A stretch of 50,381 nucleotides of DNA from a virus. The position numbers and the translations under genes were made by a program. Where the stretch lies: positions 1 to 50,381 of IMG/VR virus record IMGVR_UViG_3300008954_000076; one strand, 5' to 3'. The notes below the pieces were generated by a model. That model was not told the origin of the DNA and did not search any database. It saw nothing but the letters and a program-made list of their open reading frames with translations. Positions 2,025 to 23,243 of the stretch are shown here, piece by piece; positions within the stretch are counted from its first letter, which is position 1; each line of letters begins with the position of its first letter.

Positions 2025-2051
2025 TACTTTAGGTTTTTTAACCTATCCCCT

Positions 2052-2108: not shown

Positions 2109-2140
2109 ATGATTGTCTTTTGTAAAATGTGGAGGTAGTT

Positions 2141-2713
2141 ATGGAAGAAAATGAGTTTACTTCTAATTTGGATAAGAAGATAGACGGACTAGCTGCGAAA
2201 CGGCAAGAAGTAATGGATAATCTCCTTAATGGATCTTGGCATGCTAACGTAGTCGAGGGTAGTTTGAAGTCTGCTTTGAAAGAATTAGAAGATCGTGACC
2301 CAGCTGAATTACCCAGGTTATTGTTAAGCATAATAGAGCAGGTGCCAGCTTTAGTCAAAGGTATTTGGACGAACGGGATAAACGATGCGCAGTCTCTGGA
2401 GTCAGAGATTGCGAGATGGCAAGAAATGCAGCAATATTATAGAGATTATCTAAAAACGCACATATCGGCAGAATTAGAGAAAAATGTAGAAGAGCCAAAG
2501 AATAAAATAGAAAATAGTAGTCAGAATGAAGAAATTGCTCGAGAAGCTCTAAGGGCTGGAATTGAGTCTGGTGACATTAATGAGCCCTCTAAGATGTCTG
2601 CAATAAGGAGAGAAGTTGGTACGCACCCCGGCCCGACGTTAGGCGATTATAGAAATATGAAGAGCGAGCTAGAGGACGAACAAACAACTGCTGCAGATGA
2701 TTCTACAAGGTAA
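2141..2713 (+). CDS. Hypothetical protein, 190 aa, helical and charged
   Basis: The product is not recognised. The ATG at 2141 is chosen over an in-frame GTG at 2129 because a strong GGAGG (2131-2135) lies 5 bases upstream of the ATG. The protein is hydrophilic, rich in Glu, Lys and Asn, and looks almost entirely helical. Residues 60-100 contain hydrophobic heptad-like spacing, and the C-terminal third looks disordered and acidic (ending EDEQTTAADDSTR). No signal peptide, membrane segment or catalytic motif was seen. It is the first gene of the operon opened by the promoter at about 2081-2108. It precedes a structural-type gene by 11 bases, so a virion or assembly role is possible but not shown. 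Confidence 0.75.
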   Translation: MEENEFTSNLDKKIDGLAAKRQEVMDNLLNGSWHANVVEGSLKSALKELEDRDPAELPRLLLSIIEQVPALVKGIWTNGINDAQSLESEIARWQEMQQYYRDYLKTHISAELEKNVEEPKNKIENSSQNEEIAREALRAGIESGDINEPSKMSAIRREVGTHPGPTLGDYRNMKSELEDEQTTAADDSTR

Positions 2714-2724
2714 TACTTATACCC

Positions 2725-6203: not shown

Positions 6204-9200
6204 TGCCTGACTTTCTATCAAATATGAAACTAGCAGCTCTAGTGAGCGTAGAGAAGGAAGAGGTAGTTTCACTCCCAGAACTCTTACTAAGTGAACAAGC
6301 GGCAGTGTATAATGCGGTAGCTGAAAGTGCTGAGGATAATAGCACACCTGGTGTGAAGGTCAAGAGCCGTAGAGACAGAAGGAGGAGAGGGAGGTCTTCT
6401 ACAACCAAGAATAAAGAAAAATCAAAAACAGGATCTTCGCTTCAGAAGATGGAACAGCTTCGACAATCTAAAAAAAGGCAAGACTTTAGGAAAGCGGCAC
6501 TTCTAAAGTATCAAACCCAGAAAGGGCAAAGAAAGAGTTCGGCTACTGCAACTTCTGCTGGTGATGGTCGTAGTTCTAAAAGAGTAGAAAAGAAACGAGC
6601 AGAAGAAGAAGCGAATTCTATAGAGATCAACCCGGCCTTACGCCCTGTTATTTTGGCGATTATAGACTTTAAGCCTCTTTTTGATTCGGAAAAAAATGTG
6701 ACCTCAGTGGGCAATATCATCAAAGTAAAAAGAGCGGCTCGTGCTCTTTCTACAGAGAGCCTGTTAGAGATTGATACTTCTGAACAAATGATTGAAGAGC
6801 TTGATTTTCTTTCAGCTCACATAGCGAATGTCTCGCAACGACAGACATTTCTAGATGGTCTCGACGCTGACAGTTTAACCCTGTATGAAGAAGCACTTTC
6901 TGCTTTTGAGATAGAAGAAACCTCAGTTTCCTCTGCGTCAAATACAGAGGTACTTTATACCCTACTAAGAGACTACTGTTTTTCGCTAAATTCCTGCACA
7001 CCCAGGTTACTAGAGTGTGCAACAAGGGAATTTGAGGCAGGTACGTCTCTTATGCTTGATCCATCCACTCTCAATCCTGCCCCCAACGACCTAAGGAAAC
7101 AACTGCGGACTTGGTCGACAGCAATAAGCGGTCTATATTCTACGCTGCCAGAAGATAATGAGATATCGCTAAAGTGGTTAATCGCGACTATATCTCGTGA
7201 ATTTCTTTTCTCTTATAATAAGGCTGCCTCCGATGTATCAGATCCGCCGGCGACAACCTACGATTCACGCACAAAATTAGAGGGTGATCCAGTCTACACA
7301 TTCTCGCATTATTTTAATTTGAAGTCAGGGCAAAGGTCAATGATTCCTAGAACGGCTGGAATTACTACTGACAATATTTTTGGCACAGAGAATTTAAACG
7401 GAATTCTATATCCAGCTGGGTCAGGGAGTGGAACAGAATATTTCTTTCCATTTGAAAAATGTGAGTTAATAGCACCGACCGGATACAAGAGCTCGAATTC
7501 TGCGCCTGATGAGGTGGCCAAGCTGTACACCAAAGCAACACCACAAGCCACAGATGGACCGTATACAGACATTGCTTCTCGCTATTCAACTTTAAAAGAG
7601 AATGTTGACGCTTTAATAACAACAGACAGTTTCGATTTCGATTATTCTCCGCCAGTGATGATGCTAGAATTGATCTGTAGGAATATCGTTTCGAGATGTT
7701 TGGAGGAACTTCCTGAGTCTTCTTCTTCTTCAGCTGCTAAGAAAGATTCGATTCAAATAGGTTGGTTGATTGCCGCCGCGAAAGACGAAAAGGCGTATAA
7801 GTGGTTAATAACTTATCTTGCTTTTTTACAAGATATGCTGACAGGAACAGCAATAACAGGAGATGCATCTTCTGCTACTCCGCTTTCTTATCTGGTCAAA
7901 GGTGATAGTGGATTGAGCAGTCTTATTGGAAAGCCTTCATCTTCTAACACTACTAGAAGATCTTTCACATCAGAACCTTCAGACATATCCATCAGCCCGA
8001 CGCCAGAAGATTTTGAGAACCCTACATCAGTAGATGCCATGACTGTTACACAAGAGATAGAGCTAGCTGAAGGCGAAACATCAGGCTCAAGCGCATCTTT
8101 GCTAACATACTTTGGGAAAAGTTGGGAAGAATTATGCACCTCCGCTACGATGGGCATCAGGCCTTCGCTAAATACGATAACAGACAGCTCATTAGCAGGA
8201 AGCGACGGGGAATCATCTGAGACAACCGTGAAGCTTGATGACTTAAAAGATGTGCTTACAGACCTTGGTACAGATCCCGACTGTATTTTTGCTGAGTTAA
8301 TTTCGTTTATCGATGATGCAGATGCATTGTTTGGATATCAAGTATTCAGTGATACAGGGTTTTCAAATTATTCATCCATTCTTCGACAGCGGCTACACGC
8401 TACTATGATCGCCGCGATAGCTAAGGCAACGAGCTTCTATATAGGGGATTGTACAGTAGTTTCAGGGGGTATGAGTACCAGCTTTGAGGCTTCCAGCGCT
8501 ATAAGCGCATCCACTTCCACCACGAAAATTTCTACTTCAACATCGAAAACCTCTGGTATACGTGCCATTCAAACCAGCACCGCAGATGCTTCATCATTCA
8601 CTGTTGGTTCTTACCTGACCTATAAATACGCTGGTGTGTCAACAAGAAAAGAAGCGCTAACTGCATTTTTAGACTCTCAAGAGCTTGATACTTCTCTGAT
8701 AGAAGATTACTCTTCATCTTTAGCCAGATGTTTTTCAGGTCTGGAAGAGGAAAGTGAGTTTCAAGAAGAATTTATGGGGTCATTAGATGACTATTTTGGT
8801 AACATCCGGGATTCATATCAGATGGTTGTCGATGCTCTGCTTACTGATATCGATGAGTCTGAGGATGTGGAAGAAACGCTTGTTCAGCGCATAGGTGCTG
8901 GTCTTCCCCTGAGTTCAGATATGTGCAAGATGCTTTTAAATTACGTAAGAGTTTATGACTCCTCAGATGCGACGTATAACGATATTCGAACAAGAGACAA
9001 GGTTCTGGCATGCGCCAATATGTCCTTGTTGTCTGATGTTTTCCAAGGCCAGGATTATTGCGAGGCTGGAAAACTTAAGTACATGGTCGTAGGTATCAGG
9101 TCAGGTTGTCTTGACATGACTAAGGAAGAGCCAATAGATATGGAAGATGTGGACCGGGACACTGCGGCTACATCTCAAGCAAATTTTGTTGTATCTCTAG

Positions 9201-9988
9201 AAAAGATAGACTTAACACGTCCAGAGCTGGAATACGTAGATAAAGACTATTCATTTTCTCGTAATCTATTCGTAAATAGGGTTGATGATTCCACAGAGGG
9301 AGAAATTAACGTTTATTTTGACAATATTAATTCTGATTTTTCTGTTACAGAAGAATCAGAATCAGGGTTATCGGAAGATGATTTTTCAGATGACCAAATA
9401 GAAAATCTTAAAAATGATTTCGCGCTTAAGCTATATTCAGATTTATTTTTAGACTTAGACTTTTTTGAAGATGCGTATCCAGCGGGAGCTGCAGAGAAGA
9501 AAGCTTTATTGACGGGATCAATTAGCATGCCATCTCTTACGAGCGTAGATAAGGAACAAAATTCATTTTTATCTGGTAGCAATATAGCTTTTGACAGTGA
9601 ACAGAGACAAATTGCGGGCTTCACTTTTTATTCTGAGGGGACAGAGAGTTTGGATCTAAAATCGCTGCAGGGGCTTGATCCAACTGCTTACTCAGTATTT
9701 ACATACTTAAATTCATATGGTAATGTAGCAAATGCAGCGGCAAAGAAATCGTCGTTGAAATATGGTACCGAGTTTGAGCGAATTGTGTGTATACCTTTTG
9801 ACCCAACTGATTTTGAAGTTGACACAAGCAGCGATGATGAAGAAGCAGCAGAGATTGATGCACGCGTCGCAAAATTAACGGAAGCTGAAGAAGAGGTGGG
9901 GATCGGTTTGGAGACTTCTCAAGGAGTTGAGCTTTCTAATTTTAGAGTGTACGTTACAATTCCAGACTTAGAGGGAGACGAATCATGA
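6203..9988 (+). CDS. Very large protein of unknown function (1261 aa) with basic N-terminus
   Basis: The ATG overlaps the previous stop (TAATG), so the gene is coupled to its neighbour. Residues ~50-140 form a second Arg/Lys-rich low-complexity tract (RRDRRRRGRSS, QSKKRQDFRK), echoing the tract in the preceding gene. The remaining ~1100 residues are acidic, Ser/Thr-rich and mostly alternate helical stretches with Ser-rich linkers (for example SESSSSSAAKK near 510 and a Thr/Ser/Lys tract near 770). No domain is recognised, and no signal peptide or membrane segment was seen. Size, position in a cluster of structural-looking genes and coupling to two others suggest a virion protein, perhaps of the baseplate or head interior. 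That is inference. Confidence 0.6.
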   Translation: MPDFLSNMKLAALVSVEKEEVVSLPELLLSEQAAVYNAVAESAEDNSTPGVKVKSRRDRRRRGRSSTTKNKEKSKTGSSLQKMEQLRQSKKRQDFRKAALLKYQTQKGQRKSSATATSAGDGRSSKRVEKKRAEEEANSIEINPALRPVILAIIDFKPLFDSEKNVTSVGNIIKVKRAARALSTESLLEIDTSEQMIEELDFLSAHIANVSQRQTFLDGLDADSLTLYEEALSAFEIEETSVSSASNTEVLYTLLRDYCFSLNSCTPRLLECATREFEAGTSLMLDPSTLNPAPNDLRKQLRTWSTAISGLYSTLPEDNEISLKWLIATISREFLFSYNKAASDVSDPPATTYDSRTKLEGDPVYTFSHYFNLKSGQRSMIPRTAGITTDNIFGTENLNGILYPAGSGSGTEYFFPFEKCELIAPTGYKSSNSAPDEVAKLYTKATPQATDGPYTDIASRYSTLKENVDALITTDSFDFDYSPPVMMLELICRNIVSRCLEELPESSSSSAAKKDSIQIGWLIAAAKDEKAYKWLITYLAFLQDMLTGTAITGDASSATPLSYLVKGDSGLSSLIGKPSSSNTTRRSFTSEPSDISISPTPEDFENPTSVDAMTVTQEIELAEGETSGSSASLLTYFGKSWEELCTSATMGIRPSLNTITDSSLAGSDGESSETTVKLDDLKDVLTDLGTDPDCIFAELISFIDDADALFGYQVFSDTGFSNYSSILRQRLHATMIAAIAKATSFYIGDCTVVSGGMSTSFEASSAISASTSTTKISTSTSKTSGIRAIQTSTADASSFTVGSYLTYKYAGVSTRKEALTAFLDSQELDTSLIEDYSSSLARCFSGLEEESEFQEEFMGSLDDYFGNIRDSYQMVVDALLTDIDESEDVEETLVQRIGAGLPLSSDMCKMLLNYVRVYDSSDATYNDIRTRDKVLACANMSLLSDVFQGQDYCEAGKLKYMVVGIRSGCLDMTKEEPIDMEDVDRDTAATSQANFVVSLEKIDLTRPELEYVDKDYSFSRNLFVNRVDDSTEGEINVYFDNINSDFSVTEESESGLSEDDFSDDQIENLKNDFALKLYSDLFLDLDFFEDAYPAGAAEKKALLTGSISMPSLTSVDKEQNSFLSGSNIAFDSEQRQIAGFTFYSEGTESLDLKSLQGLDPTAYSVFTYLNSYGNVANAAAKKSSLKYGTEFERIVCIPFDPTDFEVDTSSDDEEAAEIDARVAKLTEAEEEVGIGLETSQGVELSNFRVYVTIPDLEGDES

Positions 9989-11778
9989 GTGTAGAGTCTA
10001 TTGCTAGCCGTCCTCTTCCCGTTTTTGATGTTCCTGAGATGGAAAAAGTGAAAGCAAGCTTCACATATAATTTTTTTGTTAGTGATGAAACAATCGACGA
10101 GTCTGGCAACGACGCGCTTAACGGAAACTTATCTTCTCGATTTTTAAGAAAGGGAACAGTTGATACAACAAATTTAAACGCTCGAATACCGAGATTTGCT
10201 ACTTTGACCTTCGGTCTAAAAGACACAAAGAAAAGTATGCTGGCCACAAAGTCTTCCGCGGTATCTTCTACCAAAGGTGAGATAGAGTGGGCGTTAAGCA
10301 ACGGAAAGATCTTCTCTGAAGATGACGCATCCGGGATGGGATATGAGTCGATTTGCGTAGCGAACGAGTGCTTACCACGTGACATTGAAAACATGTTAAG
10401 GGCTCGCTTAAATTCTATGGGTCTTGATGAAGCAACACCACTTGAATTACTGTCACTGATTGCTGAAACTAGCGATATAGATTCGAATTTATTGGAAAGC
10501 ATGTTACCGCCGTCATTAAAAGATGAGACAGACGTTTCCACAACTAATGGTGGTTTTTTTGAAGAAGAAGCAAAGCAGTTCACACTGATGCAGTTGAATT
10601 CCTTTTACGCTCCTCTCATGAAGCGAACAGTCGTAGAGCGTGGTACATCACTTGGAAAATCTCAAGCGATAGCTGATTTCCTGTTATGGGGCAGCAGAAA
10701 ACCGAAAGATACGTCTCACCTGCTAAGTAATGATGAGTATTTATTTGATATACCGTACGTCAGCATTGAAGAATCTGAAACAGAGGATTTCGTATCCCAG
10801 GCTGACGTTGTGGGCTTCATAATAGAAAAGAGGCGGATATATAAGGGCGTACGTTATCCGATGCCTCCGATCATCGCCATGGGTCAAGAAGTAAGAACAG
10901 TTTATGACAGCCAGGTAGCTTATGGACAAACATACGAATATGTAGGAAGAACGATAGCGAAATTCAGGGTGCCTGCGACAAGCACAGAGGGAGAAATATT
11001 CATAAAGTCTTTTTTGCTGGCGTCAAAGCCATCCCCCGCCGTATCCATTACTATAAAAGAAGACCGTAGACCAGAACCACCTGGCGACATTAATTTTTAT
11101 TTCGAATATGATAAAGAGAATCTAGTGCTCACTTGGGCCCCACCTGTTAACCCACAACGTGACGTGAAGTATATTCAGGTCTTTCGAAGGAAAACCATCA
11201 AGGATCCCTTTGAGCTTATTGTTAATTTTGATTTTGATGATTCAGTAGTTCGAACCGAGCCCAAAGAATATATAGACCCCAGCTTAAACAGGTCGATAAA
11301 ATCATTCCCAACTTATTTTGTTGATACAGAATTTGATAAGACAAAGACGTATATTTATTCTGTAGTGGCAGTTGATGCAAGACAAATAAGTTCACACTAT
11401 TCTGCTCAGATTCAGATTAGCTTTGATACTTCCAAGAATAAAATAAAGAAAGAGTTTATCTCATATAGCGGTGCCCCAAAGCAGTACCCTAATTGGCACT
11501 TAAAAGAAAACTTCTTTGTTGACACCATGAAAGATAGCGCACACAAAGCAGTTAACATTTACTTTAATCCAGAAGCATATACACTACTTAAAAATGGAAG
11601 AGAAGTAATACCAGCTTTTTGTACAACTACGATAGATCCTTTGTCTAAATACGTTTTTCAGTTTATCAATACTGACAGATTGCTCGATCAGAAGCTAGAG
11701 GTCGTCATCGATGATTCGATTCTGCAGGACAGTGTTTCGGAGAAAAAGACTACCCTAGAGCAAGATATAAGTGAGTGA
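9985..11778 (+). CDS. Structural-type protein with C-terminal fibronectin-III-like domain
   Basis: A 597-residue protein starting at an ATGA overlap with the previous gene. The first ~350 residues are not recognised; they contain an acidic, Ser-rich part and a beta-rich part near 250-350. Residues ~362-480 look like a fibronectin type III module: a Pro-rich entry (PEPPGDI), a strand LVLTWAPP, then YIQVFRR, and the Tyr-containing strand KTYIYSVVAVDA. The VFRR strand matches the equivalent strand in the protein encoded at 3663. Such domains are common on phage virion surfaces and often help bind carbohydrate or mediate assembly. It closes the coupled three-gene set; a short spacer with a promoter candidate follows. 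Confidence 0.62.
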   Translation: MSVESIASRPLPVFDVPEMEKVKASFTYNFFVSDETIDESGNDALNGNLSSRFLRKGTVDTTNLNARIPRFATLTFGLKDTKKSMLATKSSAVSSTKGEIEWALSNGKIFSEDDASGMGYESICVANECLPRDIENMLRARLNSMGLDEATPLELLSLIAETSDIDSNLLESMLPPSLKDETDVSTTNGGFFEEEAKQFTLMQLNSFYAPLMKRTVVERGTSLGKSQAIADFLLWGSRKPKDTSHLLSNDEYLFDIPYVSIEESETEDFVSQADVVGFIIEKRRIYKGVRYPMPPIIAMGQEVRTVYDSQVAYGQTYEYVGRTIAKFRVPATSTEGEIFIKSFLLASKPSPAVSITIKEDRRPEPPGDINFYFEYDKENLVLTWAPPVNPQRDVKYIQVFRRKTIKDPFELIVNFDFDDSVVRTEPKEYIDPSLNRSIKSFPTYFVDTEFDKTKTYIYSVVAVDARQISSHYSAQIQISFDTSKNKIKKEFISYSGAPKQYPNWHLKENFFVDTMKDSAHKAVNIYFNPEAYTLLKNGREVIPAFCTTTIDPLSKYVFQFINTDRLLDQKLEVVIDDSILQDSVSEKKTTLEQDISE

Positions 11779-11781
11779 ATG

Positions 11782-11808
11782 TTTACTACGTTTTTAGAGA
11801 GATATAAT
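11782..11808 (+). promoter_or_regulatory. Candidate sigma70-like promoter
   Basis: A perfect TATAAT lies at 11803-11808, with TTTACT (11782-11787) 15 bases upstream, in the 56-base gap before the gene at 11835. The spacing is short for sigma70, so the -10 box and the intergenic location carry the call. No terminator precedes it. Confidence 0.38.
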
Positions 11809-11834
11809 TAAACCCTGAGTAATGGAGGAAGTAC

Positions 11835-12545
11835 ATGGGCTTTTTAGATAACAGCACTAACAATATTATAGTGGATGCCGTGCTCACGGACTATGGCAGG
11901 GAATTGTTGGCCCGAAATGATGGTAGTTTTTCGATTGTTAAATTTGCATTCGGAGATGATGAAGTAGATTATTCAACTATCCAAAAATTCGGTAGAACAG
12001 TGGGCAAAGAGAAGATAGAGAAAAATACTCCGGTTTTTGAGGCTCAAACAAATCAAAATTTTGCATTAAAAAATAAGCTGATAAGTCTTTCCAACCCAAC
12101 CCTTATTAAGCTACCATCGGTTACGTTGTCAGGAGACGGTGTGACTGGGAATACTCTGGCGTTTAAGAGGACTGGCTCTACTTCTTCAAGGTCTATTACA
12201 TTCACACAAACGCTAACTGATGAAAACACTGTTGATCCCGAATTAAGAGATCAAACGTTCTTGGTAAAACTCCCATATAGATTCCTTGAGCTGGTGGGAA
12301 CGGATAATACTCCAGATTCCATTGACTCGAATGATATCGCGACCTATATTATTACACGGGATAGTACCACAACAGCAATTGGTGGTTCGAAGTTAACATT
12401 GAACATCAAGACGCGATCGATATCAGACAGCGTATTCACATATTACGGTGACGCAGACAACAAGTCTCAGATATCCAGCACCCTTAGGGTTGTCGGTATA
12501 CAATCAGGCGTGGTGTCAGAAATGACCGTCACGATAGAGAAGTGA
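11835..12545 (+). CDS. Virion structural-type protein, paralogous at its N-terminus to the gene at 2725
   Basis: A 236-residue protein beginning MGFLDNSTNNIIVDAVLTDY, preceded by a strong GGAGG (11823-11827) 7 bases upstream of the ATG. The N-terminal ~45 residues (DAVLTDYGRELLARNDGSF, then FAFGDDEVDYS) match the pattern of the protein at 2725. The rest is beta-rich with an SGDGVTGN turn and Ser/Thr-rich strands; no enzyme motif was seen. The N-terminal motif appears typical of a family found next to tail-fibre and baseplate-type genes of large myoviruses, but I know of no assigned function. It leads a set of three genes (11835, 12556, 13887) with spacers of about 10 bases. Confidence 0.65.
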   Translation: MGFLDNSTNNIIVDAVLTDYGRELLARNDGSFSIVKFAFGDDEVDYSTIQKFGRTVGKEKIEKNTPVFEAQTNQNFALKNKLISLSNPTLIKLPSVTLSGDGVTGNTLAFKRTGSTSSRSITFTQTLTDENTVDPELRDQTFLVKLPYRFLELVGTDNTPDSIDSNDIATYIITRDSTTTAIGGSKLTLNIKTRSISDSVFTYYGDADNKSQISSTLRVVGIQSGVVSEMTVTIEK

Positions 12546-12555
12546 GGGAAAATTA

Positions 12556-13875
12556 GTGGCTACTTTTAAGGAAATTTCAGCAGCAGATGTTAAGACATCT
12601 CGGTCTGTGCTAAACCAGCTTGTAGATCTTATCCAAGAAGATATATCTGGGTCGGCTACCAGAAGGACCTACCAGATGTGGGTTACCGGTGGCGTTGGAC
12701 CCGGTGTGACGTCTTCTCTTTATCAAACAGTTTATGACCAGGATTTCTCTCTGCAGACCGCGAACCCAATCGTTGATATGACGGTTGGTTTGTGGGTTTC
12801 TGGCTCGACAGTTGTAAGTTGCTCTTCTGGTTTAGACGCAAATGGAAGAATGTTATTTCCCTCTAGCTCACTAATGATGAGAGAGAAGGTTGACATTTAT
12901 AAGCAGTACGCTGCTAATCTTCTTGGCGACGCGAATGCATCATTTTCGACACCTTTTGGAAGTTCAGAACCAACAGAGCAAGTCAACGCAGCTGTCTTCC
13001 TTTCTTTTAAGAGGTTGTTCACTAGAGATAAAGTGAAGAGAGAAACTGTCGCAATCAAAATGTACCAATCAGCTTCTGAGTGTGCGTATAATCCACCTCA
13101 AACGCAGCATGAGGCCCCGGGCGTGACCGCTACTGGGTGGAACACCTGGCTCGGCGCGCCTAACCTAAACCAGACATCTACAAGTTCTGTGAAGATCTAC
13201 ACAGATTTTGGTGCATCTCAAAACCGTAGAAGAACGTTCGGGGGTGAGGTGGGGGATCTTGTTGATTCTGCAGATACGACGAGTAGAGTTGGTCTAGTGT
13301 TCTATGATTCAGGAACAGTCATCTTAAACGTTGCTAAGGTGATCAACGCAGATCAAGTTGTTAGCGGAGTTATTGATGGTATGACATCTGTAGTTAGACC
13401 AACCGCCGCAAACGTTGCTCGTGGTAAAATGATTATCGGATTCGGTAATGGAGTTAACACAACATCAAATTCGGAAGACGAAAACGTTGGAAGTAGAGCA
13501 AAGTTTGTTCCTGACTTCTTTACGTCTGGTAGCATCGATGACATTGTAAACCACTTTGCAACAGCACGATTCAGTTCGGGTTCTCTAACTGCAGCAACCT
13601 TCCAGAACAACACGAATATTAACTCGACGTTAATCTTCTGTCGTGCAACAGCTGATGAGTTCAATTATTCTTCTAATCCGACGTACACTAGTTCAGATAA
13701 CAGAATAAGGGTTATTGACCAGGGTCAAGAAGACGTCCAGCGATCATTTAGCTTTATTACGACCATTGGATTGTATGATGTAAATGATAACCTATTAGCA
13801 GTTGCAAAGCTTTCTCGACCGATTGAAAAGAATGACGAAAAGGATTTGACTGTTAGGGTACGGCTGGACTTCTAG
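12556..13875 (+). CDS. Putative virion structural protein with C-terminal module shared with the next gene
   Basis: A 439-residue protein starting at GTG (12556), preceded by GAGGG (12544-12548) that overlaps the previous stop. No ATG start fits better. The N-terminal ~100 residues contain a Gly/Thr-rich stretch around MWVTGGVGPGV and many short beta strands. The last ~45 residues, from FITTIGLYD through LLAVAKLSRPI to VRVRLDF, resemble modules at the ends of baseplate and fibre-attachment proteins. They align with the end of the product of the next gene, which finishes VRVKLDF. No catalytic residues or membrane segments are visible. A tail or baseplate structural role is inferred from context. 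Confidence 0.6.
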   Translation: MATFKEISAADVKTSRSVLNQLVDLIQEDISGSATRRTYQMWVTGGVGPGVTSSLYQTVYDQDFSLQTANPIVDMTVGLWVSGSTVVSCSSGLDANGRMLFPSSSLMMREKVDIYKQYAANLLGDANASFSTPFGSSEPTEQVNAAVFLSFKRLFTRDKVKRETVAIKMYQSASECAYNPPQTQHEAPGVTATGWNTWLGAPNLNQTSTSSVKIYTDFGASQNRRRTFGGEVGDLVDSADTTSRVGLVFYDSGTVILNVAKVINADQVVSGVIDGMTSVVRPTAANVARGKMIIGFGNGVNTTSNSEDENVGSRAKFVPDFFTSGSIDDIVNHFATARFSSGSLTAATFQNNTNINSTLIFCRATADEFNYSSNPTYTSSDNRIRVIDQGQEDVQRSFSFITTIGLYDVNDNLLAVAKLSRPIEKNDEKDLTVRVRLDF

Positions 13876-13886
13876 TGGGGGTGTAA

Positions 13887-16358
13887 ATGTCCCTGTTTAG
13901 GCTGGATAAAAATTACTTTGATAGCTTTAAGATCCTGACAAAACCCCGAAGAACTTTCTTTTCGGGGTCTAATAGAGGGATAACGGGATCTATCAAAGTT
14001 TTTCCAATGACCTCTTTGGGCGTTAAAGAAGTCCCAAGAGAGTCTGCTGATGATTCTGTGTCTGATGAAACAATGGAATCGACGCGTCTTTCCGTCGTTC
14101 AGGCATTCTTAAATTCATCTGGTGGTTTTGAAGATGTTGACCTCTATATGGAGAAGGTTAACTCTGCGTCTGTCTCAGCAAAGAGACAGAAGGCAGTTGA
14201 GGTATTAAGATTTGAGCCATCTTTTAAGTTCACTAGTGATACGTTACGAAAAAGAGTAATTCAAAGTGTGTTGTTTCCATTCTACAGACCGCAATACGGG
14301 TCAACCTGTAATTGGGCATTTACAAATTATCATACCTTAAATTTCTTTGCTACCAATGAGCTTGTAGATCTTCCCAACAATCCAGAGATAACGAGGATTC
14401 CATCTAGCTCAGTGTTGATATATCCAGCGATGTCATCTTCAACACAGCAGACACCCTACCGTCCCACCGGATCATTCTCTTTTGAGTTCTATATCAATCC
14501 GCGCTATTCAAACTTTACACGCTCCGGCGCATTTCATGCTGGAACCTTGTTTCACATGTCAAGCTCTTTTGCTTTGTCTCTTGTGTCGGGTAGCTCAAAA
14601 GACCCAAATGGATATACTGACGGATTTCGGTTGCTGCTTCAGCTATCTCACAGCGCTGATATACCCCCTTCGCAAATTACGATGGACAGTACGCAGTATT
14701 CGCCCAACGCTAATCATCTAATTTTCTCTAGCTCCAATAATTCTTTAAAGAAAAACCACTGGCATTATTGCTGCGTACGGTGGGCTCATGATGAGCAGAA
14801 TTCAACGGGTTCATTCTTTATTGACGGTGAAAATCAGGGTGAATTTGTAATTCGTGATATGTACCTTACTGCTAGCGGTTTAACTCAATCTGGAAGCTGG
14901 CTGCAGCAAGTCAATTTCTATGATCCGCACGGCCAGCCAGATGCGCTATTTGTTGGGAATTATTACGCAGGCCCAAATAACGACGCCGGCGTAGATGAAT
15001 CGTATATCGCTCAATTTTTTAATCCTGACGCTGCATATGATGATGGTATTGAGAATTTCTATCCCACCGTGAGTGCTGACTCTGATGACGTCTTGGAACC
15101 AAGTTTAAGCACAAGCTGTTTCAGTCATCCACTACAGGCCGAGGTACACGAGTTAAAAATTTATGGTAGATATCGTGATGATGGAGAAATTTTATCTTCA
15201 TCAGTGGACGGAATAGAGAATTTAGCATCAGCTTCTTTAGACGGCTTAATGTTCTATCTACCCCCGTTCTTTATGAAAGACACCGCTACACGGAATATAT
15301 TTCAGACACCGTTTCAAACAGTCCGCGGATCTACCGATGATCCCTTCAACGTACCTCTTTCATTCGGCGTTGGTGGTCATTATTTGAACTTGGAGAATTT
15401 TACGAAGGAATTGGTAGAAGGAAAATTCCCGAGACTATTCCACCTCACAGCAAGTACGATAGATACAGACACAGGATGGCAGTCTTGCAATTACTTCTTG
15501 TTCACAACAGGGAGCACAAGAAAGCGGAATCTTACGATCCTTCCTAATGATAACGGTCGATTTAGCCAAAATTATGGATTACTCAAGCAGGCAGTTACAC
15601 AGTCTTCTTCGCTGAGCTTGTTCGTTAATGATAGAGGCACACAAATGTTAAGTCTTATTAGCTTGAATAATCTTCTCCCAACAGGAAGTATCGGAGAAGG
15701 TTTGCTCGGTGCAGAAACAGCGGGCTCTATATCAGAGGCATTAGCTGGTGCGACACCTGATGATCCCTCTATACCTGCTGGAGCCATTCTCACTATCTAT
15801 AATAGAACAAGAGACGCATCTTCGAATGAAGTATCGTTCTTTGACGCCAGTAATTTGTTTTATGGAAATAGGATAGCTCCCGGATCTTATGTATTACAAG
15901 ACAGTGCGGTCACAGGTTCCGCAGGTCGTGTTAAGATTACATTCAGAGATAACGGTACAGGTAATCTATATCGTGCAGATGCAACAGGTAGTCATGCGAC
16001 ATGGGCATCTGCCGGTACATTACTATATGATGAGGGTCTTGCTATTGTTAAGACACCTACGATCCCGATGTTTGGAAAAGACCAATTTCAGGTAGACATG
16101 GTTGGAAATCAAAATATCCATACGCTGAGGATGAGCGTTCCAGCAGGTGAAGGTGATTTAGACCTCTCAGTTAATCCCACGTTCGAATCCCTCGCGCCCT
16201 CTGGCTTAACAGCTGATGCTCAATCTGAATTTTGTTACATTACTAACGTGAACTTTCTAGATGAAAACCTTAATGTAATATGTAAATCGAATTTCTCTCA
16301 AGCCATTGTCAAAAGGGTGGATGATAGATTTGTTGTAAGGGTTAAGCTGGATTTTTAG
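13887..16358 (+). CDS. Structural-type protein with LamG / concanavalin A-like lectin domain
   Basis: An 823-residue protein starting at ATG 13887 behind a GTGGGGG tract. Residues ~190-436 show the hallmarks of a LamG-type (ConA-like) jelly roll: an entry strand SFSFEFYINP, the central HWHYCCVRW strand near 291-300, then GSFFIDGENQGEF near 310-320, and the closing strand AEVHELKIYGR before a DDGEI turn near 430. Such domains usually bind glycans or form fibre and spike modules, so host-surface contact is a plausible role. The last ~45 residues repeat the C-terminal module of the previous gene and end VRVKLDF, which suggests both proteins dock into the same partner. The stop overlaps the next start (TAGTG). 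Confidence 0.68.
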   Translation: MSLFRLDKNYFDSFKILTKPRRTFFSGSNRGITGSIKVFPMTSLGVKEVPRESADDSVSDETMESTRLSVVQAFLNSSGGFEDVDLYMEKVNSASVSAKRQKAVEVLRFEPSFKFTSDTLRKRVIQSVLFPFYRPQYGSTCNWAFTNYHTLNFFATNELVDLPNNPEITRIPSSSVLIYPAMSSSTQQTPYRPTGSFSFEFYINPRYSNFTRSGAFHAGTLFHMSSSFALSLVSGSSKDPNGYTDGFRLLLQLSHSADIPPSQITMDSTQYSPNANHLIFSSSNNSLKKNHWHYCCVRWAHDEQNSTGSFFIDGENQGEFVIRDMYLTASGLTQSGSWLQQVNFYDPHGQPDALFVGNYYAGPNNDAGVDESYIAQFFNPDAAYDDGIENFYPTVSADSDDVLEPSLSTSCFSHPLQAEVHELKIYGRYRDDGEILSSSVDGIENLASASLDGLMFYLPPFFMKDTATRNIFQTPFQTVRGSTDDPFNVPLSFGVGGHYLNLENFTKELVEGKFPRLFHLTASTIDTDTGWQSCNYFLFTTGSTRKRNLTILPNDNGRFSQNYGLLKQAVTQSSSLSLFVNDRGTQMLSLISLNNLLPTGSIGEGLLGAETAGSISEALAGATPDDPSIPAGAILTIYNRTRDASSNEVSFFDASNLFYGNRIAPGSYVLQDSAVTGSAGRVKITFRDNGTGNLYRADATGSHATWASAGTLLYDEGLAIVKTPTIPMFGKDQFQVDMVGNQNIHTLRMSVPAGEGDLDLSVNPTFESLAPSGLTADAQSEFCYITNVNFLDENLNVICKSNFSQAIVKRVDDRFVVRVKLDF

Positions 16359-16906
16359 TGTCGCTTGTATTAGGGTTAGATATTTCCACGTCTGTAGTGG
16401 GGTGGTGCATTTTAGATAAGGATACTAACGAGTTTGTATCTGCTGGTGCTATTGATCTTAAAAAGATAAAGTGCGTATTTCATAAAGCAACGAACGTCTT
16501 TAATGAGCTTAAGTCGCTTGAGCGTACGCACCGGGTTGACTATGTTGCGATTGAAGAGAATCTTCAAGCATTCCGCCCTGGATTCTCAAGTGCAAAAACC
16601 CTGGTATCACTAGCACGGTTTAACGGGATGGTCAGCTTATATTCTCACGATATATTCGGTATTGTTCCAGACTTCATTAACGTAAATCACGCACGAAAGC
16701 TTGTTGGACTTAAAATAGACAGAAAATCTTCCCTTTCGACAAAAGAACAGGTATTTGATTTTGTTAAAGCGAGATTGCCTGGTTACGACTGGCCTATGAA
16801 GACTATGAAATCAGGCCCTAGAAAAGGTCTTGTACTCTTCGCAGATGGTTGTTATGATATATCAGATGCTTATGTTATAGCTGCTTCTTGTGTGAAAAAT
16901 GAGTGA
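16358..16906 (+). CDS. RuvC-like Holliday junction resolvase (RNase H fold)
   Basis: A 182-residue protein starting at GTG 16358, which overlaps the previous stop (TAGTG). The fold signature of RuvC-type nucleases is clear: first strand VLGLDIST with D8, second acidic motif YVAIEEN with E66/E67, and C-terminal CYDISDAYVIA with D167 and D170. These would form the metal-binding active site. The length is close to that of bacterial RuvC. In phages such enzymes cut branched DNA before packaging, a job done in T4 by the unrelated endonuclease VII. It is the first gene of a DNA-metabolism block and overlaps the primase gene by 8 bases. The fold assignment is strong; junction specificity is inferred. 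Confidence 0.82.
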   Translation: MSLVLGLDISTSVVGWCILDKDTNEFVSAGAIDLKKIKCVFHKATNVFNELKSLERTHRVDYVAIEENLQAFRPGFSSAKTLVSLARFNGMVSLYSHDIFGIVPDFINVNHARKLVGLKIDRKSSLSTKEQVFDFVKARLPGYDWPMKTMKSGPRKGLVLFADGCYDISDAYVIAASCVKNE

Positions 16907-17873
16907 TGACCACCTAATAAGAAAAAGAGTAAATTTAATCCAGCGTGCTTTCGGAACTTCCATCATGGATAGAGATGGGGTGAATGTTGCTGTAGGCTGT
17001 GTTAACAAAAACTGCTCTTCATTTGGGAAACCAGCAAAAAAGAAGCTCACGCTTAGGGTGGATAATGAGTTTTATCATTGCTGGGTCTGCGGTTTGCGTG
17101 GCCGAGGTTTAGTTCGATTTTTTAAGATTTATAAGCCTCGATATCTAGAGGCTGCTAGTTCGATTTTCGAGAAGAGAGTAGCAGAGAAAGAAGAAGAGCA
17201 ATTACCAGCGATAGCGCTTCCAGATAATTTTAGACTATTGGCAACACTGAATGGAAGCGCAGACCCTGATTTAAGAGCATGCAAAAACTATTTGTTGACT
17301 AGAGGGTTTGCTCAAAAAGATTTGTGGTATTTTCGGTTGGGCGCAGTTTCTTCGGGAAGATATCGTCGAAGGATCATCATTCCTTCCTTTGACTCAGAGG
17401 GTGTATTGAACTATTTTACGGCGAGATCTATTGACACTGATGCTGGTCGGAAATATATCAACCCTCGTGTAAAGAGAAGTGAGATCATTTTTAATGAAAT
17501 GAACATAGATTGGACAAAAGAATTGACGATTGTAGAGGGTCCCTTTGACCTTATGAAAGCAAATCAAAATTGCACATGCCTTTTAGGAAGCTCGTTAAAC
17601 GAAAAGCACTCGCTATTTCAACGTATTGTTCAAAATAAGACGCCTACTATTCTTGCGCTAGATCCTGATGCCAGCAAAAAGACGCAAGACATCGCGAGAC
17701 TCTTGAGCTCGTTTGATGTATCGGTTAAAATTCTAGATGTTACTCCCTACGAAGATGTGGGTGAAATGCCCTTGGGTGAATTCAATAAAATGTTGCCAAA
17801 TGCAAAGCAATGGACAGAGATGGACAGGTTGATGAGTATGATTAGTAAGATAAAGTCTGGATCATTGATATGA
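16899..17873 (+). CDS. DNA primase, DnaG / T4 gp61 type
   Basis: A 324-residue primase that would make RNA primers for lagging-strand synthesis together with a replicative helicase not present here. An N-terminal zinc ribbon is visible as C34-x4-C39 and C61-x2-C64 (the second pair in YHCWVCGLRGRG). A TOPRIM domain follows, with the glutamate motif LTIVEGPFDLM (E213) and the aspartate motif LALDPDAS (D255, D257). The conserved basic segment RRRIIIPSFD (about 157-165) precedes it. The size and layout match T4 gp61 (about 340 residues) rather than the larger bacterial DnaG, because the helicase-binding C-terminal domain is short. It overlaps the resolvase gene by 8 bases and is followed by the recombination nuclease gene. 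Confidence 0.88.
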   Translation: MSDDHLIRKRVNLIQRAFGTSIMDRDGVNVAVGCVNKNCSSFGKPAKKKLTLRVDNEFYHCWVCGLRGRGLVRFFKIYKPRYLEAASSIFEKRVAEKEEEQLPAIALPDNFRLLATLNGSADPDLRACKNYLLTRGFAQKDLWYFRLGAVSSGRYRRRIIIPSFDSEGVLNYFTARSIDTDAGRKYINPRVKRSEIIFNEMNIDWTKELTIVEGPFDLMKANQNCTCLLGSSLNEKHSLFQRIVQNKTPTILALDPDASKKTQDIARLLSSFDVSVKILDVTPYEDVGEMPLGEFNKMLPNAKQWTEMDRLMSMISKIKSGSLI

Positions 17874-17888
17874 AGGGAGTGAATTTTG
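17874..17888 (+). promoter_or_regulatory. Ribosome binding site supporting a TTG start
   Basis: AGGGAG at 17874-17879 lies 6 bases before the TTG at 17886. This is the only start that keeps the complete first phosphoesterase motif (FADIH) and has good spacing, so the unusual TTG start is accepted. Confidence 0.7.
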
Positions 17889-20800
17889 TCTTTTAAGTGT
17901 GCGCATTTTGCAGATATACATTTCAGAGGGTTGACACGTCATGATGAATATCGAAAAGTATTTCAGCAGTCCTTTGAAAAGCTTCAAGATCTTCAGCCAG
18001 ATGTTATTTTTCTGGGTGGAGATATCGTCCACTCAAAGACACAGGGTATAAGCCCGGAGCTAATTGAGATTTTGCGCTGGTGGTTTACTTCATTAGCTGA
18101 AATAGCTCCTGTGCATGTTATCTTAGGTAATCATGACGGGCTTATGTTGAATGAAGACCGCCTCGACGCGATCACTCCGATTATCAACACTATGAATAAC
18201 GATCGTATTCAGTTAATGAAGGGTACCGGCGTTTATCCTACAGGGGTCGACGGATACAACTGGTGTACCTTCTGTTGCTTTGACGAGAAGTCTTGGGGTG
18301 AACTAACACCCCCACCAGAAGGGGTCAATCTGGCGCTCTATCATGGGCCTGTGAATGGCTCACTTACAGATCAAGATTGGGAAATTAATGGCGACACTAT
18401 TAAGGTCGATTTCTTTAAAGATTATGATTATGCGCTGCTGGGAGATATTCATAAGAGACAATTTCTGACTGAGAAGGTCGCGTATCCTGGCTCTACCATT
18501 CAGCAAAATTACGGGGAAGATGTCGAGAAAGGATTTTTATTTTGGCATATCAAGAGCAAAGATGATTTTGATGTGCAGTTTATCCCTCTACACAATCCAC
18601 ACTCATTTCGAACCATAGCCTGGCAAGGCGATGTCGTAGAGACGTTAGATCAGATACCTGATGAATGGTCTGGTTCTAGATTCAGGATCGCGCACAGCGG
18701 AATAAATCAGTTAGATTTTAGGCAACTTCAGGCCGCGCTTAAGGAGAGGTTTGCCGCGTATGAAGTTGTTTCAAAAAATGAAGCTTCATCATTCACTGGT
18801 TCCGAAGTAGAGATTAGTACAAGTATTGGAAAGATTAGTCGCAATGATCTAAGGAACTTCACGCAGCAAGATAAGCTTATGAGCGATTTTGTTTCTAAGC
18901 TTGAAATGCCTGAAGAAGATAGAGACCTCTTAAGACAATTACACAAAGATATTTTTAAGCGATGTGTGCAGCAGGTAATTCACAAGTCTCACCAGTGGAG
19001 ATTGAGAAAGCTGGCTTTTGATAACACTTTCGGATATGGTGAGGGAAACATAATAGACTTTGACGTCTTGAATGGGATCACTGGTATTTTTGGAAAGAAC
19101 AGGTGCGGCAAGTCCTCGATACCCGGTACATTAGTTTATTCACTATTTAATTCTACTGACAGAGGGGTCTTAAAAAATCTCCATGTTGTAAATAATCGAA
19201 AGACATTTTGTCGCGCTACTGTGGATTTCTCTGTAGGGGGAGAGCTATATCGAGCAGACCGCCAGACAATTAAGCGCACTAACAGAAAAGGAGCTGTCTC
19301 TGCCCCGACTAATCTCAACCTGCTTAAGTTAGACGCAAGCGGTGAGCAGATAGAAGACAACACTGGTGAGCAAAGGAGGGAAACAGAGAAAGTCTTAAAA
19401 ACGCTCGTTGGCAGTGTTGATGATTTTCTTATGACATCCTTTGCGTCACAGGGAGAAATGAACGCGTTTATACGCGAGGGCTCAACTCGTAGAAAAGCTA
19501 TTCTTACTCGTTTTCTAGATCTTCAGATTTTTGATGAAATGTTAAAGATCGCAAAAAATGAAATGTCAGAATTGCGAGGAGAAATGAAGTCTGCTCCAGA
19601 TAAAAATTGGAAGATCCTGATATGCGAACAGGACGAATCTTTGGAGAGCTTTGCTGATGAGAAAAAAGAGGTAGAAGATGAGCTGGAAGAGTTGAAGGAA
19701 AAGAGGGATGATCTTAAGATTAGATTGGCTGCTTTACCCACATCAGGAAAATATACAAAGGTGCAACTAGAAGAGCAAGTTGAGAAGCTTAACGTGCTTG
19801 AAACAAAGAAGCATACAGCACGCAACAAGATAATAGAGCTATCGACTGAAAGAGATGCGATATCGAAGAGGCTGGAGAAAATTGCGATTATCAAAGACCA
19901 GTTTCCGATTGATGAGTTAAGAGCACAAGCAGTGCTTAAGAATGAATTAAGAAGTCAATGTGAACTTATCGAAGCAGGCTTGAATTTGGAGATTCAGAAA
20001 TTAAATTCAAAGAAAAAGCTGGCAAAAAAGCTTGAGAGCGTTCCATGTGGGGATGAGTTCCCAAAATGTCCGTACATCAAAGATGCGCACAAAAGCTCTA
20101 GGGAGTTAGACGGTCAGAAAGAGATCGTAACGAATGTGCGCAAAGAGTTGAGGGCAGTCAAGTCGAATCTAGATTCTCTACTTTCCGCAGGTGTCGATCA
20201 GAAGCTTAAGAAATATGAGGGTCTGTTGCAGCAAGAGCAGACGTTAAAGTTAGAGAATTCAGAGATGAAACTCTCCATGAAAGAATCTGAGTCGGACCAT
20301 CAAGAGCTTGTTACTTCTTTGCTCGCTGGAAAAGAAGCACTGCGTGAAATGCGATTGCGATCTATAGATGAAGAGAAAGATGGTGAAGTTATAGAGATGC
20401 GAAAGGATCTTACATCGATTGAGCATCGGATATCTGAGCTTGATGGATCAAGGCTTTATTTGACTGAGCAGATTAGCGTGACGAAACAGGTCAGAGAAAA
20501 TCTTAATGAAGAACGAGAGCGCTATAGCACGATTAAGACAAGATGGGAAACGTATAGCACATTCATGCAGGCAGTTGATAAGAAGGGGATCCCCCTAACG
20601 ATTCTTTCATTACAGCTTCCGCAGATCAATGCTGAGCTTACCAAGATACTACAGGGCGTCGTTAATTTTGAATTAACGCTTGAGGCAGACCCTGACTCCA
20701 ACAACATGGATATTTTTATAGATTATGGTGATTCCAAGCGCATTATCGAATGCGGCTCCGGTATGGAAAAGATGATTGCATCTCTTGCGCTAAGAGTTGG

Positions 20801-21032
20801 GCTTATCAATATCTGCAATGCACCGCGAAGCGATGTGTTAATAATTGACGAGGGATTTGGCGCTCTTGATGATAAGAATATTGAAGCCTGCTCAAGGCTG
20901 TTGACTTCATTGAAGAAGTATTTCACTAATATTCTGATTATCTCGCATGTTGATGCTGTGAAAGATATCGTCGACAACGTCATTGATATTCAAAAATCGG
21001 GGAAGGACGCAAGGGTTAGATATGCAGAGTGA
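17886..21032 (+). CDS. Single-chain fusion of Mre11/SbcD-like nuclease and Rad50/SbcC-like ATPase (gp47-gp46 type)
   Basis: One uninterrupted 1048-residue frame carries both subunits of the DNA-end processing complex. Residues 1-~230 are a calcineurin-like phosphoesterase with all metal-binding motifs: ADIH (9-12), GGD (44-46), GNHD (81-84), YHGP (152-155) and GDIH (186-189). A cap and linker region follows to ~370. Residues ~375 onward are the Rad50-like half: Walker A GKNRCGKSS (403-411), two long coiled-coil arms (~560-710 and ~735-890) around a possible zinc hook (C721, C728), an ABC signature near SGMEKM (~957-962), and Walker B LIIDEGFGALDD (~985-996). In T4 the nuclease (47) and ATPase (46) are separate adjacent genes in this order, so a gene fusion is the simple explanation. 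The expected role is DNA-end resection in recombination-dependent replication. Confidence 0.88.
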   Translation: MSFKCAHFADIHFRGLTRHDEYRKVFQQSFEKLQDLQPDVIFLGGDIVHSKTQGISPELIEILRWWFTSLAEIAPVHVILGNHDGLMLNEDRLDAITPIINTMNNDRIQLMKGTGVYPTGVDGYNWCTFCCFDEKSWGELTPPPEGVNLALYHGPVNGSLTDQDWEINGDTIKVDFFKDYDYALLGDIHKRQFLTEKVAYPGSTIQQNYGEDVEKGFLFWHIKSKDDFDVQFIPLHNPHSFRTIAWQGDVVETLDQIPDEWSGSRFRIAHSGINQLDFRQLQAALKERFAAYEVVSKNEASSFTGSEVEISTSIGKISRNDLRNFTQQDKLMSDFVSKLEMPEEDRDLLRQLHKDIFKRCVQQVIHKSHQWRLRKLAFDNTFGYGEGNIIDFDVLNGITGIFGKNRCGKSSIPGTLVYSLFNSTDRGVLKNLHVVNNRKTFCRATVDFSVGGELYRADRQTIKRTNRKGAVSAPTNLNLLKLDASGEQIEDNTGEQRRETEKVLKTLVGSVDDFLMTSFASQGEMNAFIREGSTRRKAILTRFLDLQIFDEMLKIAKNEMSELRGEMKSAPDKNWKILICEQDESLESFADEKKEVEDELEELKEKRDDLKIRLAALPTSGKYTKVQLEEQVEKLNVLETKKHTARNKIIELSTERDAISKRLEKIAIIKDQFPIDELRAQAVLKNELRSQCELIEAGLNLEIQKLNSKKKLAKKLESVPCGDEFPKCPYIKDAHKSSRELDGQKEIVTNVRKELRAVKSNLDSLLSAGVDQKLKKYEGLLQQEQTLKLENSEMKLSMKESESDHQELVTSLLAGKEALREMRLRSIDEEKDGEVIEMRKDLTSIEHRISELDGSRLYLTEQISVTKQVRENLNEERERYSTIKTRWETYSTFMQAVDKKGIPLTILSLQLPQINAELTKILQGVVNFELTLEADPDSNNMDIFIDYGDSKRIIECGSGMEKMIASLALRVGLINICNAPRSDVLIIDEGFGALDDKNIEACSRLLTSLKKYFTNILIISHVDAVKDIVDNVIDIQKSGKDARVRYAE

Positions 21033-21647: not shown

Positions 21648-23243
21648 ATGCCACCTCTGAACAAACAGAAACAAGTCGCAGAGATTGTAAAGTGCGGGAA
21701 AGATCCGTCTTATTTCATCAATCGCTATGTCCAAATTCAGCATCCTATTCGTGGTCGAATCCCTTTTCATACATTCCCATTTCAGGATGATTGTCTAGGG
21801 TACTTTAACGATCATCGTTATAGTGTTGTTGTAAAGTCTAGACAGCTTGGACTATCAACATTAACTGCTGCGTACGCAGTGTGGATGACTTTATTTCGTA
21901 AAGATAAGACAGTGCTTGTTATCGCAACAAAGCTAGCAGTGGCTCAAAACTTTATTAAGAAAGTAAAGATTGCTCTCTCTGGTATTCCTAAGTGGATGTG
22001 GATAACTGAAATCACTGCCAAGAATACTCAGGCTATTGAATTTTCAAATGGTTCCGCAATAAAGGCTGTTCCAACCTCTGATGACGCCGGCCGTTCCGAG
22101 GCGTTAAGTTTATTGATCGTTGACGAGGCAGCATTCATTCGTAACTTTGATGAGCTGTGGAAGGGGCTATACCCAACCCTATCGACGGGTGGTAGGGCGA
22201 TTGTTGTTAGCACCCCCAACGGTACGGGTGGTCAATATTACGACATATACCACGATGCTGTGAATGGTGATAATGAATTCAAGGCCATAAAGCTTCCTTG
22301 GGATGTACACCCCGAGAGAGACGACACATGGTTTCAAAATGAGAGTAAGAACTTAAATCGTCAACAAATAGCACAAGAGCTGCTGTGCGATTTCCAGGCA
22401 TCTGGAGAAACGTTTTTATCTTCCGAAGATATAGAAAAATTAAGAATGCAGATTCGCCATCCGCTTGAAAAATGGGGTCCAGATAATGGAGTCTGGGTCT
22501 GGAAGTACGCGCTTGAGGGTCATTCCTATATAATTTCTGCAGATGTTGCTAGGGGAGATGGGGGAGATTATTCTGCATTTCATGTAATAGACACAACGAT
22601 TTCTGAAGTGGTGGTAGAGTTTAAGGGGCGTGTACCTCCAGACCAATTAGCTTTTTTATTGATGGAAGCCTCTAAGAGATATGACGATGCTATGATATGT
22701 CCTGAAAGTAATACGTACGGCTACGCGGTACTTATGAAGCTACAAGAGCTAGGGTGCCGGCAGATATATTTCAAGAAAGAGAAAGACAAATTTAACGTCT
22801 TATACGGAAATGGGTCTATCGGGAAAGCCGGCTTCTCCACACAAGGAACAAGCAGAGCTCAGATTCTTACAAAGTTAGAAGAAGTGCTTCGTAATAATAA
22901 GGTATCGATTTATTCTTCTCGATTTGCAGATGAAATGAAGACGTTTATCTGGACCAACAATAAGGCTCAAGCTCAACGTGGAAAAAATGACGACTTAGTA
23001 ATGTCTTTAGCTATTGGGCTCTGGCTATATGATGCGAAATCAAGTGGTAAGGTAAAGAAGGTAGATATGAACGCAGCAATGTTGGCTGGCTTCGCTATGA
23101 ATAAAAAAAATGAGGCCCCGCAAAGGGACATGTCTCCCTTTAATCAACAGGTGGGTATATTTACTGCAAGAGGAATGCCAATCTCTATGGACGATACCCA
23201 TCCCTTGATATCAGGCAGCGCAGATTTTAAGTGGTTGCTTTAA
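21648..23243 (+). CDS. Terminase large subunit (T4 gp17-like): packaging ATPase and nuclease
   Basis: A 531-residue DNA-packaging motor. The ATPase domain has Walker A SRQLGLST (64-71, the T4-type variant with Gln-Leu-Gly), Walker B LLIVDEAAF (155-163) and the coupling motif VVSTPNGTG (186-194). The RNase H-like nuclease domain has D299 in ISADVARGDGGD, E353 in CPESNTYG, and D448/D449 in GKNDDLVMSLA. The length is slightly shorter than T4 gp17 (610). It docks on the portal, whose gene follows 27 bases downstream, pumps DNA into the prohead and cuts concatemers. The ATG at 21648 has GAGGT directly upstream, overlapping the previous stop. No small subunit gene is recognisable next to it. Confidence 0.95.
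   Translation: MPPLNKQKQVAEIVKCGKDPSYFINRYVQIQHPIRGRIPFHTFPFQDDCLGYFNDHRYSVVVKSRQLGLSTLTAAYAVWMTLFRKDKTVLVIATKLAVAQNFIKKVKIALSGIPKWMWITEITAKNTQAIEFSNGSAIKAVPTSDDAGRSEALSLLIVDEAAFIRNFDELWKGLYPTLSTGGRAIVVSTPNGTGGQYYDIYHDAVNGDNEFKAIKLPWDVHPERDDTWFQNESKNLNRQQIAQELLCDFQASGETFLSSEDIEKLRMQIRHPLEKWGPDNGVWVWKYALEGHSYIISADVARGDGGDYSAFHVIDTTISEVVVEFKGRVPPDQLAFLLMEASKRYDDAMICPESNTYGYAVLMKLQELGCRQIYFKKEKDKFNVLYGNGSIGKAGFSTQGTSRAQILTKLEEVLRNNKVSIYSSRFADEMKTFIWTNNKAQAQRGKNDDLVMSLAIGLWLYDAKSSGKVKKVDMNAAMLAGFAMNKKNEAPQRDMSPFNQQVGIFTARGMPISMDDTHPLISGSADFKWLL

Follow-up and report, generated by a model that had tools for sequence, protein, structure and literature searches.

A virus record of 50,381 bases (IMGVR_UViG_3300008954_000076; the whole of this stretch is called the window), which holds genes for the terminase, portal, head protease, and major head protein, contains a gene from which the phage very probably makes an SbcCD/Mre11-Rad50 DNA-end nuclease of its own in one chain, the explanation that best accounts for the sequence and structure-model evidence as a whole. 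As read from both, the predicted protein is a nuclease with a capping domain, a helix pair at the position for Rad50 binding, a six-residue linker, and a complete Rad50 ATPase. Mre11/Rad50 fusions have been known since 2011, and the window gene adds a member. An unusual coiled-coil tip and a renewed division of the gene in some relatives appear to go beyond the published description of the fusion, and these are the parts that merit specialist attention.

One chain with nuclease and ATPase domains

The plus-strand frame at 17886–21032 runs uninterrupted for 1048 codons from a TTG start to a stop at 21030–21032; AAGGGAG (17873–17879) precedes the start by six bases, and the largest minus-strand open reading frame (ORF) over the gene encodes 123 residues. 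An SbcD/Mre11-type nuclease (approximately residues 3–299) is followed by a short linker and then by an SbcC/Rad50-type ATPase (residues 370–1048). Two Pfam families are matched above cut-off, Metallophos (PF00149; residues 4–190) and AAA_23 (residues 378–626), while PHROGs assigns residues 1–359 as SbcD-like and residues 303–1044 as SbcC-like (families 100 and 77). The initial annotation, made from the sequence alone, had read a single 1048-codon frame with five nuclease motifs and a Rad50-type ATPase, and the ORF, Pfam, PHROGs, and the structure model all bear it out.

The phosphoesterase fold carries all five metal-binding motifs (D10-x-H12, G45-D46-IV-H49, G81-N-H-D84, H153, and G186-D187-I-H189), with two departures from the SbcD/Mre11 motif set out in passages of Yoshida, Claverie, and Ogata (2011; PMC3175470), namely H49 where GDXXD has its third Asp and D187 where motif V has His. 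The same two substitutions are given for Mimivirus R555 in these passages (the window reads GDIVH and GDIH), and the motif V Asp occurs in T5-like D12 as well. As in an R555-type fusion, both domains lie on one chain with the nuclease N-terminal. The ATPase half displays an ATP-binding cassette head (Walker A GKNRCGKSS at 403–411, Q-loop, signature SGMEK at 958–962, Walker B IIDE at 986–989, D-loop, and H1021) interrupted by an antiparallel coiled coil. Conservation of key residues was counted over a set of 153 distinct ORFs with a minimum length of 800 residues, second pieces of split genes, truncated ORFs, and the window's own included. Walker A K409 was kept in all 153 and E989 in 152 (one gap), while D10 was kept in 141 (12 gaps), H83 in 142 (11 gaps), and H189 in 143 (six gaps, four other residues). 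A chance resemblance is excluded because of the length of the frame, the E-values, and this conservation.

A structure model built on 67 aligned sequences (the window protein and 66 of 70 relatives) reached a mean predicted local distance difference test (pLDDT) of 85.6. Residues 3–299 superpose on Staphylococcus aureus SbcD (7dog_B, nuclease and capping domain; Z 26.1, root mean square deviation [rmsd] 2.9, 276 residues aligned) and residues 371–1048 on the Escherichia coli SbcC head (7yzp_C; Z 31.2, rmsd 6.8, 426 residues aligned), with residue 1 of SbcC aligned to model residue 371. Between them the model places two helices (325–337 and 343–363) at the position of the Mre11 helix-loop-helix, then six residues, and then the first Rad50 strand; the helix pair may dock on its own chain. 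Each arm of the coiled coil has approximately 170 residues.

By analogy with E. coli SbcCD and T4 gp46/gp47, from which all functional steps are drawn, the window protein probably works as a homodimer, its task being to trim DNA ends on which a RecA-type recombinase then acts. Two chains would pair via their nuclease and ATPase heads into the normal M2R2 complex, so that one dimer of the fused chain can reasonably be equated with one normal complex. The heads would open and close with ATP, allowing the nicking or trimming of DNA ends and hairpins by the nuclease, and the resulting 3' tails would feed recombination-dependent replication and repair, as for gp46/gp47. Fusion would fix the subunit ratio and aid assembly; the further suggestion of the initial annotation, a changed coupling of nuclease and ATPase, is a possibility only. 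RecA is present in 13 of 14 records of phages with a fused or split gene, among them a 119-kb record (G001) that encodes the window protein unchanged. An SbcD match occurs in all 14, single in 13 and accompanied in one by a second weak match (a 242-aa frame), and an SbcC match in eight of eight records of another set.

Several points weigh against reading the gene as a single-chain SbcCD. Models specific to SbcC are matched under their cut-offs, both Pfam SbcC_Walker_B (PF13558; residues 954–1007, 21.1 versus 27 bits) and the best NCBIfam match, the SbcC subfamily model TIGR00618 (107.8 versus 478.5 bits). The H49 and D187 changes could alter activity. The predicted template modeling score (pTM) of the model is only 0.47, and the six-residue linker is shorter than the 9–12 residues estimated in passages of PMC3175470 for the approximately 28 Angstrom that they place between the Mre11 C terminus and the Rad50 N terminus, so that docking within the same chain is unproven. 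We also know of no activity recorded for viral fusion proteins. A protein that is chiefly a tether or SMC-like DNA organizer, or that acts in defence or counter-defence with a minor nuclease function, would fit the two nuclease positions off the usual motif, the variant coiled-coil tip, and the additional alignment of SMC and cohesin heads (Z 24–26). Such a role is nonetheless improbable: the metal-binding positions are occupied by residues capable of binding metal, in the structure comparison the C-terminal part matches Rad50/SbcC best and the N-terminal part SbcD, and the gene has primase and terminase genes on either side and a resolvase gene close by.

Fused relatives and the origin of the fusion

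Relatives were drawn from four viral-contig scans and one genome-contig scan, one of the viral scans with its best 80 matches. The whole protein (residues 1–1048) is 100% identical in two loci, L006 and L007, whose contigs bear different metagenome numbers. A single frame extends over the match in 96 of 98 loci checked, L003 and L016 being split; the 96 include loci cut by contig ends, repeat loci on one contig, and L115, which matches over the nuclease half only, and the check covered loci other than L005, the contig-end pieces L012, L014, and L017–L019, and the separate-gene loci L020 and L021. Among 30 further loci (L122–L151), 29 have a single frame and L141 is split. After de-duplication, the search for other chains with both domains that the initial annotation had proposed yielded 142 distinct ORFs above 900 residues in one frame, and 151 of the 153 distinct ORFs span residues 330–420 unbroken (window's own included in both counts). 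Fused relatives reach down to approximately 25% identity with the window protein; the named ones are Microcystis phage Mel-JY01, in which the product is annotated only as an AAA protein and for which a literature search found no paper on the phage, and a 735-kb uncultured phage.

An assembly or sequencing error that merged two genes truly divided by a stop, which the separate yet overlapping genes of T5-like phages might bring to mind, is almost certainly not the explanation and was rejected, given the identical junction in L006 and L007 and the unbroken frame in divergent relatives down to the named genome of Mel-JY01. The initial annotation had named two findings that would speak against a fusion, a break at about residues 360–380 and relatives whose halves are always separate genes. 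The first was seen in one of 80 loci (L195, with several breaks), other breaks lying inside the nuclease domain; the second holds for distant relatives (T4, T5-like phages, L020, L021, and others) but far from always. Its statement that the two subunits are known as separate proteins overlooks the fusions published in 2011, one phage protein and marine viral relatives among them (passages of PMC3175470).

Further matches came from other searches. A viral structure library gave long alignments (E 1e-44 or better) to giant-virus proteins, Tupanvirus ones included, which were the best matches, and also to a Listeria phage protein (1009 aa) and two Tenacibaculum phage proteins (1310 and 1318 aa), with modest TM-scores (0.32–0.56); a different Listeria phage encodes the nuclease as its own gene. 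A scan with L153 returned a second fusion group; of its 18 loci, 17 have matches to both halves within a single frame, and L157 has a match to the ATPase half only. In PHROG 77, separate SbcC proteins start at profile position 293–296 (five of five) and the fused L153 from position 167, and the match starts within this family suggest that databases may already contain unlabeled fusions. PHROG 35725 ("metallo-phosphoesterase") matches L145 almost end to end.

Side observations were made on several of these loci. The second fused group (L153 and L158–L174) has proteins of approximately 1280 aa where whole, with motif V GHIH in the six inspected; L153 is from human faecal samples. The ATPase half at L157 (2925–5975) is 97% identical to L153 and lacks an in-frame nuclease half, which may reflect a chimera or recombination. 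L195 (3448–6502) lies in several frames with breaks from near residue 379 and is either degenerate or affected by sequencing error. In the metagenome-assembled genome locus L115, the nuclease half stands alone, with no ATPase half recognized downstream, and a viral-contig scan with L114, also from a metagenome-assembled genome, found no relative.

Trees of the two halves drew on 94 proteins less than 90% alike, of which 37 less than 55% alike were used, together with three split proteins; both trees were built without L114, and the truncated ATPase of L021 and nuclease of L020 were left out of the respective trees. The sampled fused and three split proteins grouped into a single clade, both in the nuclease tree (39 rows versus 14; Shimodaira–Hasegawa-like approximate likelihood ratio test [SH-aLRT] 99) and in the ATPase tree (39 versus 16, SH-aLRT 99; 40 versus 16, SH-aLRT 99, with L114 included). 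Whichever half is used, gut fusions of the L153 group adjoin the separate Moorella phage proteins (SH-aLRT 94 and 82). The number of fusion events may be one or more. We lean toward several origins, with no common fused ancestor of the gut and aquatic fusions; besides the Moorella placement, the fusions treated in passages of PMC3175470 are likewise not monophyletic there. Against this, a single fused clade is compatible with both halves (approximately unbiased test, p-AU 0.30 for the nuclease and 0.37 for the ATPase), and long branches converge at that place. However often it arose, the fusion would most likely have come about by read-through between neighboring SbcD and SbcC genes; D12 and D13 overlap by 17, 20, and 11 bases in three T5-like phages (the 17 from an UNVERIFIED record).

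Relatives with the gene in two pieces

In ten loci (L003, L016, L141, L175–L180, and L200) the gene lies in two pieces with the break just after motif V, as at L003 2944–7166, L016 4498–7732, and L141 2983–6223; the second piece of L180 extends to the contig end. The break maps to a hairpin of the model at residues 192–200, inside the nuclease and not between the domains. A scan aimed at split forms gave, among its best 80 loci, 70 fused, eight broken, and two leaving the contig; seven of the eight are broken at this hairpin, and L195 near residue 379 and beyond. Across all ten split loci the tails of the first pieces have a net charge of −2 to −8 and the heads of the second pieces +1 to +6, as compared to 0 to +5 in the equivalent loops of 35 fused relatives. 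For eight of the ten, the second reading has its start inside or next to the stop that ends the first. In L016 it starts 8 bases past the first stop, with the pieces in different frames and an insert of approximately 100 bases, and in L003 the two pieces are separated by a gene of 305 aa whose matches are HNH and TnsA-like.

Between L178 and L179, nonsynonymous and synonymous differences per site were 0.034 versus 0.642 in the first piece and 0.055 versus 0.590 in the second, and selection on both pieces is therefore indicated; the 29-codon tail by itself is less clear (eight synonymous and five nonsynonymous codon differences). Holding L003, L016, and L141 together was rejected on the nuclease tree (p 8e-6), and with it a single origin of the split among these three. 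A 45-row tree required a minimum of four changes between the fused and split states and placed the fused L194 among split rows, so that the gene may have been re-fused or split repeatedly. A group I intron or intein at the site is not favored in view of the short, frame-shifted insert of L016, although no dedicated intron search was made. Translational bypassing is a possibility for L016.

Taken jointly, these observations somewhat favor a fused enzyme re-split, inside its nuclease, into two working chains, one with motifs I–V and an acidic tail and the other with a basic head, the remaining nuclease, and all of Rad50, which would re-pair across the hairpin strands; this hairpin would have been split on two or more occasions, in one of which a homing-type endonuclease gene has stayed in place. 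The two chains would have to reassemble, a situation that resembles that of phage genes split by homing endonucleases, described in passages of PMC2988022 (Aeh1 nrdA/mobE, whose nrdA retained function, and T4 gene 60/mobA). In these, as would be the case in the split relatives, a phage enzyme is cut in a functionally critical region and yields two chains needing reassembly; the enzymes are different ones, however, and an endonuclease gene at the site is absent from nine of the ten split relatives. The openly available literature searched yielded no report of a split form. The natural re-splits mark a place at which the nuclease may tolerate cutting.

Coiled-coil tip, genomic setting, and known systems

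The arms of the window protein meet at a C721-x6-C728 tip and not at a typical CXXC zinc hook. Among the 153 distinct ORFs, 123 have CX6C only, 28 have CXXC only (including Mel-JY01 and a megaphage group), and two have neither; among separate SbcC proteins, CPxC was found in six of eight, CLVC in the Acinetobacter one, and no candidate in that of Moorella. In most of the clade, window included, the arms may be joined through a CX6C tip in place of a CXXC hook. Passages of PMC5093744 state that the CXXC hook is conserved across all life forms, even viruses, a universality that the CX6C tip calls into question.

Among distinct relatives with sufficient sequence, 90 of 120 have primase as the immediate upstream neighbor, 81 of 110 have a RuvC-like gene on the upstream side, and 71 of 92 have terminase downstream. 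The 735-kb phage (LR756501) encodes a separate 566-aa SbcC (L121, 4006–5703, minus strand) in addition to the fused protein of L004, and no SbcD was recognized by eye around L121 among ORFs of at least 120 aa. Further upstream in the window, nine long ORFs within 3–16358 (e.g., 3663–6203, 9985–11778, and 13887–16358) have no PHROG match at E 0.001; eight of them were scanned in Pfam, with one weak match, below cut-off.

Features of the fused gene and its conserved neighbors in the window
Feature	Position	Strand	Basis
Fused SbcD/Mre11-SbcC/Rad50 coding sequence, 1048 aa	17886..21032	+	ORF, Pfam, PHROGs; TTG with AAGGGAG 17873–17879
Metallophosphoesterase nuclease core, residues 4–190, motifs I–V	17895..18455	+	PF00149; motif columns kept in relatives
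Beta-hairpin after motif V, residues 192–200, unbroken in the window; split site of ten relatives	18459..18485	+	Model strands 192–195 and 198–200
Mre11 capping domain, about residues 241–298	18606..18779	+	Secondary structure; 7dog_B alignment 3–299; limits approximate and inferred
Helices 325–337 and 343–363, putative Rad50-binding Mre11 helix-loop-helix	18858..18974	+	Model; position as in passages of PMC3175470; role putative
Linker, residues 364–369, helix to first Rad50 strand	18975..18992	+	Model; SbcC residue 1 at model residue 371
Rad50 N-terminal ATPase lobe, Walker A 403–411, Q-loop region	18993..19520	+	AAA_23; structural alignment to SbcC/Rad50 heads
Ascending coiled coil, residues 547–717	19524..20036	+	Model helices
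Coiled-coil tip, C721-x6-C728 replacing CXXC	20037..20069	+	Sequence; relatives
Descending coiled coil, residues 729–897	20070..20576	+	Model helices
Rad50 C-terminal ATPase lobe: SGMEK, IIDE, D-loop, His 1021	20589..21029	+	Pfam SbcC_Walker_B under cut-off; conserved columns; structure
RuvC-like resolvase, conserved neighbor	16358..16906	+	PHROG 159 and 827
DNA primase, conserved neighbor	16899..17873	+	PHROG 47
Terminase large subunit, conserved neighbor	21648..23243	+	PHROG 2

Passages of PMC3175470 describe the fusion for R555 of Mimivirus and for a further twelve proteins, one of them from a Bacillus phage, and judge fusion homologs in marine metagenomes mostly viral; beyond that paper, no description of phage fusions was found in the openly available literature searched. 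A jumbo-phage review calls SbcC/SbcD practically universally conserved, with the fusion unmentioned in the passages concerned (PMC7824862). Long phage contigs now confirm, gene by gene, what these passages of PMC3175470 had from few long metagenome pieces, that fused SbcCD belongs to aquatic phages. An SbcCD of one chain with a short coiled coil could also simplify biochemistry and structure work.

Relative to known systems, the window protein is reminiscent of R555, which as described in passages of PMC3175470 is a virus-borne single chain with the same nuclease-ATPase order and the same changes in motifs II and V. R555 is known here by description only; it has 1351 residues as compared to 1048, and the window gene differs in belonging to a tailed phage, in its primase and terminase neighbors, and in its CX6C tip. 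E. coli SbcCD has the head and nuclease folds in common with the window protein, and TIGR00618 is the best NCBIfam match, under cut-off as noted, whereas SbcCD is encoded by two genes and its SbcC has 1048 residues against approximately 680 in the ATPase half of the window protein, which also differs in its tip. T4 gp47/gp46 and T5-like D12/D13 share PHROG families 100 and 77, the gene order, and a phage replication setting with the window; in contrast, the T4 genes are separate with two small genes between them, the T5-like genes are separate and overlap by 11–20 bases, and a CPxC hook is found in T4 and in the one T5-like protein inspected where the window protein has CX6C.

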